Positions 3,881-62,323 of a stretch of DNA of 64,000 nucleotides are shown here, piece by piece (the stretch's first letter is position 1; each line of letters opens with the position of its first letter). The stretch comes from Methanorbis rubei (GTDB taxonomy: Archaea; Halobacteriota; Methanomicrobia; Methanomicrobiales; Methanocorpusculaceae). The notes beneath the pieces were generated by a model. It was not told the origin of the DNA. It saw nothing but the letters and a program-made list of their open reading frames with translations, and did no database searches. The stretch is from positions 248,001 to 312,000 of the forward strand of contig NZ_JAWDKB010000001.1 of the NCBI RefSeq assembly GCF_032714495.1, in the 5' to 3' direction. The position numbers were made by a program, and so were the translations under genes.

Positions 3881-3987
3881 AAACGCGAATTACACGAATA
3901 GCGCGAATAAAAAATCGCCATTGGCGATTTTTTATTCGCGTTATTCCGCGAAGCGGTGAGCATGCCTTCGGCATGCGATTCGCGTTT
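3881..3987. repeat. Intergenic repeat family A, copy A1
   Basis: Outer inverted arms AAACGCGAAT / ATTCGCGTTT enclose the inner hairpin AATCGCCA-T-TGGCGATT with its T-tract, plus the inserted double-hairpin module at 3946-3977. It lies between the convergent pirin gene (14 nt after the stop) and the 77-residue gene. Confidence 0.85.
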
Positions 3988-4011
3988 GAAAAAAATATGA
4001 ATCGAAAAAAT

Positions 4012-4245
4012 TCAGCTGTCGATGAACTCTCTGATTTTTTGAACCAGATACTCTTCCGCCTTGGCAGCCTCTTCGGGACTGCCGCGGAATGCGATCAACT
4101 CGCGCTCGTCATTAACCATGTTCGCATAGCTCAACGGCCGCGTCACGCTCACCATCTCAAGATCAAACATCGATGCAATATCGCGGATGATAGTCCGCGG
4201 GGTTCCCGGCGGGATAATCAGATCTACTTCCTCAATTTCCGTCAT
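4012..4245 (-). CDS. Small conserved methanogen protein coupled to marker 14
   Basis: 77 residues starting MTEIEEVDLIIPPGTPRTII and ending KAEEYLVQKIREFIDS; soluble, acidic, no membrane segment. I chose the ATG at 4245 because GGAGGT, embedded in the last codons of the upstream marker-14 gene, sits 7 nt before it. A longer in-frame reading to 4344 would overlap that gene by about 90 nt and lacks a ribosome site. The stop of the upstream gene lies at 4251, so translation is coupled. I do not recognise a characterised family; the pairing suggests a partner or accessory of methanogenesis marker 14, perhaps a small methanogen-specific marker family. Function unknown. Confidence 0.7.
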   Translation of the reverse strand: MTEIEEVDLIIPPGTPRTIIRDIASMFDLEMVSVTRPLSYANMVNDERELIAFRGSPEEAAKAEEYLVQKIREFIDS

Positions 4246-4250
4246 CAGCA

Positions 4251-5738
4251 TTACCTCCCAATCTTCTGGCGTTTTGCCATAATACATTTTCCGCCGCGGA
4301 CTCCCCCGATCGGACATTTCGGGTGGCCGAGACTGTTCATACATCTTCCCATAAGGGCTGCGCCGCGAGCGAGACCGTCATCAACAAACACGAGATGGGT
4401 AACCGGATCATCGTAGAGATTGCGTTCGGTCACTCCGTCCAGAATATACTGCGGCTTGTTGCCTGAGATGATGGCGCGGCCCGTAAAACCGATGGAGCTG
4501 TTTGGCGGCAGGACATTTCTCTCCATACAGAGATCAATGATTTTGAGCGCGACTGCTGCACACAGCCGGTCAACGACCTCACGGATAACATCCTTGCTCT
4601 CATTCTTCGCAAGCTCAGCACCAATTGCTTCAAGCTCAGGAATTTTGTCGCCATCGTGTCCCACATCAACGCCAAGCAGATAAATTCCCGAAGCCTTTGC
4701 AACGTCTGCGCAGACTGGTACTTTACCGAAATGTTTGCGGTCTGCCGGAACCTCGGTGATGTCAAGAATGGCCATGCACCGCTCCACATACGGCATCGCC
4801 TTCTTTGTGGCACGGTTCGCCGCAGGCTTGCAGGTTTCACCGAAGAGATCCAGTGCTGTTCCCTTCTTTTTGTCCACAAGACCTGTTCCTCTGATGATCG
4901 CGTCAGGAATTGCTCCCGCAAGACCACAGAAGTTTCCGATCGTTTTTGCGAACGGACTCGCTGCATCAGGATCGACATCGCTCGTGATACGGCCGTCCAG
5001 CGTTGTACCGAAGTCCATGGAGATGCAGGGGTTGCGGAAATCAACCGGCGTCCACTTGGCTCCTTCTTTGATTCCTGCCATCGCAAGCTCGCCTTCCATC
5101 TCGTTTGCGACCATCTCAACTCCGGAAGCTCCAGCAGGCGGCGTGACGCCTGCGACCGCACCGGTGAAGACTAATCTGTCTGCGAAGCTGAACTCACGGA
5201 GCTTTGGCGGCAGATTATCTTTGCCCATCGGCGGCGTCATTTTTCTTGGAGGAACGCCTGCCTCAAGACAGCCGTTTGCAAGAGCCACAATAAAATCCCC
5301 TACCTGATCGGGCGAGTCCATTGCGGCAACGACTCCTGTGCTGCGCACCACGAAGTCGAGATCTCCCTTGATGGTCAGGTCAGCGTCGCGGTGGCATTGT
5401 ATCAGCGTGTTTTTCACGAGTTCGGTGACCGACTCCCGGGTAAGTTCGGTTCCGTCCAGGGTCGTTCCAAACACCTGTTCCCCCGGCTTTGGCGGCCTGA
5501 CGTCACGGCTCATTGAGACGGTTTTGTTGATAACATAGGACCGTCCTTCTTCAAGATCGGTTCCGGTAAGGATGCATTTGGTAGTCGTATTTCCCATCTC
5601 AACGGATGCAACGATGAAATACGGCTTTGATTTGTATTCGGGAATGCTCATTCCCGCTCCGTGTCCGGTAACCGGTGGCGGAATACTCTCCACAATCCAC
5701 GGTTTCTTCGCGGTAAATCGGTCAAAAAAACCTGCCGT
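4251..5738 (-). CDS. Methanogenesis marker protein 14 (ASKHA-like)
   Basis: About 495 residues. The segment YFIVASVEMGNTTTKCILTG is the phosphate-1-type loop of the actin/sugar-kinase/Hsp70 fold. Later glycine-rich loops (ISMDFGTTLDGRI, FVDDGLARGAALMGR) complete an ATPase-like core related to reductive activators of corrinoid proteins. Proteins of this family occur essentially only in methanogens and are listed as methanogenesis marker 14; the exact role is not established. The start MTAGFFDRF at 5738 is preferred because a TATA-like TATTTATC lies about 30 nt upstream; an in-frame ATG at 5789 touches the stop of the next gene and is the alternative. It is followed by the coupled 77-residue gene. 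Confidence 0.85.
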   Translation of the reverse strand, partial: TAGFFDRFTAKKPWIVESIPPPVTGHGAGMSIPEYKSKPYFIVASVEMGNTTTKCILTGTDLEEGRSYVINKTVSMSRDVRPPKPGEQVFGTTLDGTELTRESVTELVKNTLIQCHRDADLTIKGDLDFVVRSTGVVAAMDSPDQVGDFIVALANGCLEAGVPPRKMTPPMGKDNLPPKLREFSFADRLVFTGAVAGVTPPAGASGVEMVANEMEGELAMAGIKEGAKWTPVDFRNPCISMDFGTTLDGRITSDVDPDAASPFAKTIGNFCGLAGAIPDAIIRGTGLVDKKKGTALDLFGETCKPAANRATKKAMPYVERCMAILDITEVPADRKHFGKVPVCADVAKASGIYLLGVDVGHDGDKIPELEAIGAELAKNESKDVIREVVDRLCAAVALKIIDLCMERNVLPPNSSIGFTGRAIISGNKPQYILDGVTERNLYDDPVTHLVFVDDGLARGAALMGRCMNSLGHPKCPIGGVRGGKCIMAKRQKIGR

Positions 5739-5791
5739 CATATTACAGACAGTACTATTTCTGATTGATAAATAGGTTTGCATCCCCAATC

Positions 5792-60693: not shown

Positions 60694-60706
60694 TGTTCGG
60701 ATAGTA

Positions 60707-60723
60707 GAATATATTTCATGAAA
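60707..60723 (-). promoter_or_regulatory. Ferritin TATA box with overlapping palindrome
   Basis: GAATATAT on the minus strand is the likely TATA box (60707-60714). Directly upstream of it in the BRE position is the perfect 12-bp palindrome ATTTCATGAAAT (60712-60723), a plausible repressor site. Confidence 0.5.
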
Positions 60724-60952
60724 TGGTATTAAAGTGCGGATGAGGGCAAAATGTATCTCTCGGGGAAAAGTTTCGTTCAAAAATGAGAAAGAACATTTTG
60801 TGGCATCAAAGATGTTAGATTTTTTCAGTGTGTTCCGTGGACGAATTAGATGCAATAAGGTAACATTCGTTTTTTTCCCTTCCTGTTTAAATAGATGTAA
60901 AGTTTTTTCGACGAACAGCCTTATTGCAGAGTCCTACTAACAAGTACATCCA

Positions 60953-62170
60953 ATGGAATCCAGATCGCGCCTTGTTGCCATGCCGCTTGTGGTAACCCTG
61001 CTGATGCTTGTAGCGCCGCTGATCCATCCTTATATTGTCGGGGCAGTAGTAATTCTGCTGTCCATCATTCTCTATACGATTCATAAAACTCATTATCTTG
61101 CGATCTCGATCGCGGTCCTTGCACTGCTGTATGGTATCGGATTTATTCCGGTGACCGCATTTGTGGCCCCCATGATGATGATGGTCTGGGGCGAGTTCAT
61201 TGCCAGGATTCTTAATAATCATCTACCTGACACCCTTGCCTTTACCGCGGGTTCAGTGCTTGGTATTGCAGCCACCATGATCTACTGCCAACAGCTTGAC
61301 TGGCTTGTCGGCATCATTGCGGTTGTGGTGCTACTGATGCTTCGAAGTATCCTCACGAACCGCGATGATGCGTCGATGATAGGTCTTTTAGGCGTTGCAA
61401 TGACGATTACGCTGTTCTTTGACCTGGACTTCACATACGATGCAACCATGCTTGCCCTGGCAGTCGCGGTCTGTGCCGGCTTTGCCTACTTTGCCTATCG
61501 GGCAAAGACCGTTGATGCGAGCGGCGTGTTTGCAGCAGTTTTATTCGGCATAATTTTGATCACCTTTGCAGGCGTGCCCTGGTTCCTTATCGTTATCAGC
61601 TTCTTTATTCTCGGATCCTTTTTCACCAAATACAGATATGCGGAAAAAGTGTTCCTTGGTGTTGAGCAGGGAAAGAGCGGACGCCGCGGCTACCTGAACG
61701 CATTTGCCAATGCCCTTGTAGGAGTTGCCGGCGCAATCCTCTTCGGTATCACCGGCAATGAAATATTTATCGCGCTGTTCCTCGGTTGCATTGCAACCGC
61801 TACCGCAGACACTCTTGCGAGCGAGATCGGTGTTACCGGCGGAACTCCTTATATGATCACCACGCTGAGGCCGGTGCCTGCCGGAACGAACGGCGGTGTT
61901 ACGGTGCTTGGCGAGCTTGCGTGTCTGCTTGGCGCCACAATCATCTGCGGACTTGCGTTTCTGCTGGATGTTGCGCCATGGTATATCTGCGTGATCGGCA
62001 TCATTGCCGGATTTGTCGGCACGAATGTTGACAGTCTGATTGGTGCACTCATCGAGAACAAGGGCGTCATCGGAAATTCCGGCACAAATTTGCTTGCAAC
62101 CCTTTCCGGCGGCCTGTTTGCGATGGCGGCGTACTGGGTGGCTGTGACTGTGTCGGCCAGCTTTTTTTGA
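60953..62170 (+). CDS. DUF92 membrane protein
   Basis: 405 residues, about ten membrane helices. The DUF92 domain occupies the C-terminal half: GQGKSGRRGYLNAFANALVG-like region (VEQGKSGRRGYLNAFANALV), ATADTLASEIGVTGGTPYMI and the charged TLRPVPAGTNGGVTVLGE. Relatives include a phytyl/prenyl phosphate kinase (VTE6), so a prenyl-phosphate role is possible. GTTTAAATAG near 60886 may be the TATA box. The repeat A7 begins 3 nt after the stop. Confidence 0.85.
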   Translation: MESRSRLVAMPLVVTLLMLVAPLIHPYIVGAVVILLSIILYTIHKTHYLAISIAVLALLYGIGFIPVTAFVAPMMMMVWGEFIARILNNHLPDTLAFTAGSVLGIAATMIYCQQLDWLVGIIAVVVLLMLRSILTNRDDASMIGLLGVAMTITLFFDLDFTYDATMLALAVAVCAGFAYFAYRAKTVDASGVFAAVLFGIILITFAGVPWFLIVISFFILGSFFTKYRYAEKVFLGVEQGKSGRRGYLNAFANALVGVAGAILFGITGNEIFIALFLGCIATATADTLASEIGVTGGTPYMITTLRPVPAGTNGGVTVLGELACLLGATIICGLAFLLDVAPWYICVIGIIAGFVGTNVDSLIGALIENKGVIGNSGTNLLATLSGGLFAMAAYWVAVTVSASFF

Positions 62171-62172
62171 TG

Positions 62173-62323
62173 AAACGCGAATAGCGCGAATCGCATGCCT
62201 TCGGCCTGCTCACCGCTTTACGGAATAAAAAAATCGCCAATGGCGATTTTTAAGGGATTACCAAAATTATTTTTTGGACACATCTATCCATTTAGAGATG
62301 CATAGATTTTTTTATTCGCGTTT
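62173..62323. repeat. Intergenic repeat family A, copy A7
   Basis: Left arm AAACGCGAATAGCGCGAA followed immediately by the module in inverse orientation (62192-62223). One inner TCGCCAATGGCGA hairpin (near 62233), the AT-rich spacer with ATCTATCC/GAGATG, and right arm TTTATTCGCGTTTT. It lies between DUF92 and the ACT gene. Confidence 0.85.

Follow-up and report, generated by a model that had tools for sequence, protein, structure and literature searches.

In bacteria, palindromic repeats have been found to gather at gene 3' ends. The SPRITE repeats of pneumococcus are terminator-like, enriched at gene 3' ends and limited to one species and a near relative; duplication has not been demonstrated for them, and a co-opted role as terminators has been suggested (PMC3049150). 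Bacterial REPs are located in convergent and tandem intergenic regions, frequently less than 20 bp away from the 3' end, and roles as 3'-end stabilisers or in processing have been hypothesised for them (PMC3733652). Pneumococcal repeat families also cluster and insert into one another (reviewed in PMC10969869). In archaea, termination needs U-tracts of 4-7, while a hairpin is not strictly required (PMC8716108). The repeat described here, named family A, extends this bacterial observation to an archaeon, in which its copies have been mapped well.

The window is a stretch of 64,000 nt (positions 248001-312000 of contig 1) from a 1.83-Mb draft genome, for which a sequence-only reading had reported seven copies of a palindromic intergenic element. 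All seven were recovered with exact outer arms (AAACGCGAAT / ATTCGCGTTT) at the coordinates reported, except that in copy 5 the left arm begins at 39920 and not at 39919. Together they hold nine inner hairpins; eight match exactly, and the ninth (near 8644) has a single change. Gene ends were taken from the calls of a purpose-written codon-usage gene caller and not from an annotation; on these calls three copies (3881, 39919 and 53901) are flanked by convergent genes and the other four by tandem ones, as previously described. A start near a stop codon had been claimed for every copy. This needs amending for copy 3 (14571-14734), whose beginning is 109 nt away from the start codon of its left-hand minus-strand gene and whose other end is 13 nt past the stop of 14748-15320 (minus strand). 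Rfam matches above the gathering score in the window comprised a tRNA only, and none for family A.

The copies differ in their internal make-up. Copy 1 (3881-3987), between convergent genes, contains a single inner hairpin (3914-3928) together with a nested hairpin module rich in GC (CCGCGAAGCGGTGAGCATGCCTTCGGCATGCG), folds at -61 kcal/mol (z -8.7) and is shared with the sister species G018 (locus L085). Copy 2 (8618-8768), between tandem genes and 35 nt past the upstream stop, has two inner hairpins, of which the left differs at one position; in G018 its site contains no more than a remnant of the right arm alongside sequence of other repeats. Copy 3 has one inner hairpin with a GC-rich module on its right, and a 17-nt shell (AAACGCGAATCGCGTTT) is all that is found at its site in G018. 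Copy 4 (22113-22250) has one inner hairpin and lies between tandem genes, 12 nt past the stop of 21069-22100. Copy 5 (39919-40102), between convergent genes and shared with G018 (locus L086), carries two inner hairpins in inverted orientation and a GC-rich module on the right; a native T-tract (TAATTTTTTTT) is retained between the stop of 40112-41707 and its right arm. Copy 6 (53901-54022) has the right inner hairpin only and lies between a plus-strand gene, whose stop codon is formed by the arm itself (AAA CGC GAA TAA), and a TATA-binding-protein-like (TBP-like) gene (54082-54648, minus strand), whose native T-tract (CTTTTTTT) is retained; its fold has a z of about -4 on either strand. Copy 7 (62173-62323), with one inner hairpin and a GC-rich module on the left, starts 2 nt past the stop of 60953-62170.

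When every copy in the genome was read, the full element took the form TTTTGAAACGCGAAT(AGCGCGAAT)n AAAAATCGCCAATGGCGATTTTT, followed by an AT-rich directional spacer and the inverse arrangement, with a median size of about 170 bp and a GC content of 36%, compared to 51% for the window. Its terminal inverted repeats start with TTTTGAAACGCGAAT and include the internal AAAAATCGCCAATGGCGATTTTT palindrome. The 21-bp palindrome AAAATCGCCAWTGGCGATTTT is present on both sides, within the terminal inverted repeats; as the two hairpins form an inverted pair, they are part of these repeats, and 45-90 nt of spacer separate them. In single-hairpin copies the other hairpin has usually gone as a block, with the flanking A- or T-tracts joined. 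Many arms contain a nested GC-rich hairpin module (CCGCGAAGCGGTGAGCAGGCCGAAGGCATGCG), and about a dozen of 130 ends have a longer outer flank (GAGTGGTGAATGGGCATGATGAGATTTTG) in common. Some copies hold a unit of 70-110 nt in tandem repetition (L004:2516-2764; L084; L108).

Across the 1.83-Mb genome, 98 exact AAAATCGCCAWTGGCGATTTT hairpins were found in 75 clusters, compared to none for a reversed-pattern control, so the hairpins are not due to chance. Family A was also found independently at 25 orthologous sites in G018, and the probability that it is a product of chance or of assembly is practically negligible. G018 belongs to the same genus, is about 90% identical across shared loci and contains 84 exact hairpins, while 59 other relatives contain none. 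When the genus was searched at the DNA level with a composite element, there were 75 matches in the own genome, 89 in G018 and one weak match in G004. Exact scans of GTDB-220 and IMG/VR, collections from which the own and very near genomes were possibly left out, returned no element, and a pattern of the arm had a single match, in a bacterial contig, roughly as many as expected by chance. Comparisons between genomes are based on the sequence stretches taken around copies.

The position of the element relative to genes is strongly biased. Among 74 scored contexts genome-wide (two loci, each split by another repeat, being counted twice), 40 are convergent, 30 tandem and 4 divergent, and none lies inside a gene. 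The intergenic gaps in G018 stretches gave a background of 26 convergent, 77 tandem and 38 divergent (p=5e-8); these stretches were picked by synteny, because loci picked around elements give a biased gene-context background. The median distance of the arm is 19 nt to a stop codon (n=98) and 101 nt to a start codon (n=30), and 11 stop codons are in contact with the arm or part of it. The bias towards gene 3' ends, on which the sequence-only reading had staked its terminator reading beforehand, holds across the whole genome. At 53901-53912 and at five other loci of this genome the arm provides an in-frame stop (AAA CGC GAA TAR), which gives the upstream protein a K-R-E C-terminus.

A comparison with the sister species reveals both sharing and loss. 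Of 41 orthologous sites, G018 carries family A at 25 and lacks it at 16; pattern matching and visual inspection assign a shell or arm remnant (e.g. AAACGCGAATCGCGTTT) to about eight of the latter, another repeat family to about five and nothing recognisable to the rest, and no clean empty site, free of shell or other rearrangement, was found. Shells are rare and virtually confined to the two genomes that bear the element. Being nearly absent from other congeners, they are likelier to be remnants of loss, a direction short of proof, and their interpretation as pre-existing insertion targets was rejected on the same distribution. Spacers of paralogous copies are mostly far more diverged than those of orthologous ones, which argues that most copies predate the species split; the recent pair L001/L003 is an exception. 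An inversion of the spacer between species was considered and discarded: L039 is suggestive, and L044 is better explained as another copy.

Sequence change within shared copies is uneven. Six ortholog pairs have both hairpins in each of the two genomes, and their 13-nt cores show 3 differences in 156 positions; the spacers of ortholog pairs aligning head to head differ at 16 of 287 (5.6%). G018 hairpins at shared sites are off consensus at 10 of 660 positions (1.5%), and coding flanks differ by about 10% between the two species. The hairpin and spacer values come from clean pairs and hairpin counts; raw alignments misalign rearranged copies. The hairpin thus appears to evolve more slowly than the spacer and to be more conserved than a passive relic needs, an impression that is partly due to ascertainment, since the loci were collected through exact hairpins.

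As had been stated, the window contains no transposase, and none matching family A was encountered in the searches made. RAYT genes (PF01797) were found in 0 of 25 Methanocorpusculum-clade genomes while positive controls matched, and a RAYT/Y1 transposase was on this ground rejected as mobiliser. No autonomous relative with family A ends was seen among PF01797 or PF01609 matches, integrase relatives or lone arms; the genome is about 96% complete. The DDE_Tnp_1 genes were dismissed as a source, as their ends do not match those of family A (one matches family B, described below), and a lone arm at C3:234037 turned out to be a repeat cluster with no adjoining transposase. The target duplications proposed as a check gave no signal at any register in 54 copies (best z 2.3 among 144 combinations), a result to which old copies that have lost their duplication could contribute.

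A second repeat, family B (ends TAGGAGTTACGCGG), occupies the gene-3'-end niche beside T-tracts in the same two genomes. It has two copies in the window, at 25093-25233 and 35886-36215, with ends TAGGACTTAC.CGG / CCGCGTAACTCC.A, an internal CCACGGAA... palindrome and 5-bp duplications (TTTTT and AAAGA). Duplications of this family are about 5 bp long and T-rich (TTTTT, TTATT, TTCAA, TTGAA, TTTTA). In G018, a 1.1-kb insertion (L205:1201-2303, contig C4) has family B ends and is flanked by the duplication TTTTA, and the DDE_Tnp_1 domain in it is spread across several frames; it is probably an autonomous relative of the family B repeats that is now broken, as its reading frame looks. Family B is an IS-derived MITE, and it shows that a transposon route to T-tract-adjacent gene ends exists in this genus. 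Families A and B share niche and genomes and are found nested, yet only family B has the T-rich duplications and a DDE_Tnp_1 relative; by analogy, the same route may once have been open to family A. Family B insertions inside family A copies, with intact duplications (L045, L049, L056), indicate that family A is the older at those sites. The two species differ at one gene-end site, where one has family B and the other family A (L039:3635-3997 and L095 near 8561). In G009, a 353-aa tyrosine recombinase (PF00589; L142:287-1348) lies directly behind the T-tract of the TBP-like gene together with a single family B end; no second family B end was seen there. As integrase relatives lack these repeats on their flanks, the recombinase was rejected as a partner and the pairing taken as coincidence.

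Taken together, we consider family A to be a lineage-specific, non-autonomous, MITE-type palindromic repeat, old, mostly inherited and sitting beside native T-tract terminators (probability about 0.68). The proposal of a MITE-like parasite that spares ORFs thus gains support from the terminal inverted repeats, the low GC content, the dozens of copies, the patchy sharing with the sister species, the absence from other congeners and the count of 0/74 inside genes. Weighing against it are the negative results for a duplication signal, a clean empty site and a cognate transposase in the searches made, together with the conservation of the hairpin, the last subject to ascertainment. Family A would have transposed in the past, multiplying before and around the split from G018, presumably with the help of a transposase that has since disappeared or escapes recognition. 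Today it would be mostly inherited and eroding through deletion of hairpin blocks, shrinkage to the 17-nt shell and invasion by younger IS-derived repeats. Its place just behind native T-tract terminators could reflect either a T-rich insertion preference or the purging of other sites.

The relation to native terminators is seen most directly at two window genes, for which the sequence 3' of the stop was compared in up to 25 genomes. Most genomes have no element there and a naked T-tract (e.g. TAATCTTTTTTTTT), while in the own genome the T-tract is kept at both genes with family A directly behind it (TAATTTTTTTT followed by GAAACGCG; for the TBP-like gene, AATCTTTTTTTGAGTGTAATTTGG followed by AAACGCG), and in G018 a different repeat stands behind the T-tract of the TBP-like gene. 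Given that archaeal termination depends on U-tracts, this retention at both genes indicates that the element joined a terminator already at work rather than replacing it. More widely, 39 of 76 arms in the own genome have a tract of at least five T before them, compared to an expected fraction of 0.38 from length-matched, element-free genes, and 68% of element-free genes have such a tract within 80 nt of the stop.

The main alternative, a co-opted or dedicated bidirectional terminator whose hairpin and A/T tracts are kept by selection at gene ends, above all convergent ones, builds on the strong 3'-end and convergent bias and on the T-tracts of at least five in 54 of 54 complete copies, on both strands (mean 2.9 tracts per strand). 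With an archaeal need for U-tracts of 4-7 (PMC8716108), such tracts make it possible that the sequence could terminate transcription as an archaeal U-tract terminator, not that it does, and the SPRITE proposal (PMC3049150) offers a parallel. Either strand of the element folds stably (z -4 to -9), which also favours this reading but is what any palindrome must produce; in the isolated hairpin the T-run pairs with the A-run, and a terminator scan of 1-20000 did not have family A hairpins among those listed. The slower evolution of hairpins than of spacers would fit selection, but 50 stem changes are one-sided and one is compensatory, which gives no covariation support for an RNA structure, and archaeal terminators need no hairpin in any case. 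Moreover, the native T-tract is kept upstream at the two compared loci, most element-free genes have a tract of their own, and the orthologous genes in G018 and 23 congeners manage without the element. The terminator or 3'-end processing function suggested by the sequence-only reading is therefore left with its T-tracts and conserved hairpin in favour, and with the retained native tracts and the stem changes against it. A terminator kept by selection seems unlikely to us, and its more ambitious form, a palindromic repeat domesticated genome-wide as a backup bidirectional terminator beside native U-tracts, mainly at convergent genes and with the hairpin under selection, somewhat less likely still. 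Secondary bidirectional termination is possible, and the T-tracts and stem would permit a backup terminator as a side effect of the MITE-type repeat.

In a further alternative, the hairpin would act at mRNA 3' ends as REP/BIME elements may, either stabilising the message by blocking 3' exonucleases or serving as a processing signal that marks a cleavage site, a role for which its position just past stops, its stable stem on either strand and the roles hypothesised for REPs (PMC3733652) could be cited. However, with a native T-tract before the arm in about half of the scored cases many messages may end before the hairpin, and virtually no compensatory stem changes are seen, so that we regard this role as quite improbable.

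Two sister species that differ at many sites provide a natural experiment, in which the same gene occurs with and without the element and with its native terminator intact, and the question of terminator or tolerated passenger becomes directly testable in one organism pair. A simple reason for the archaeal niche may be that U-tract terminators are natural landing places for mobile elements whose targets are T-rich.

Among known systems, family A resembles SPRITE, BOX and RUP of Streptococcus pneumoniae in being short, AT-rich and limited to a species and a close relative, a likeness by description for which no sequence relation is expected. Unlike SPRITE, it occurs in an archaeon and not in a Firmicute, and has long symmetric terminal repeats with a full palindrome instead of only AAAA/TTTT ends. 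With the REPs of the GTAG and CGTC superfamilies (PMC3733652) it shares high copy number, palindromic structure and a location at convergent and tandem gene 3' ends, but it measures ~170 bp with terminal inverted repeats compared to a palindrome of 20-40 bp, and no GTAG/CGTC tag was seen at its common ends (TTTTGAAACGCGAAT). Like prokaryotic MITEs (reviewed in PMC10969869), it is short, non-coding, AT-rich, multicopy and intergenic with terminal inverted repeats; unlike them, it showed neither target duplication nor matching IS in the searches made. Lacking REP tag, RAYT and duplication, family A is MITE-like and not a proven MITE. Group IIC introns insert after intrinsic terminators, and the analogy with them concerns target choice only, family A having neither intron structure nor reverse transcriptase. 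Family A is best described as the kind of thing that SPRITE and REP are, in an archaeon, with a sequence of its own and longer terminal repeats.
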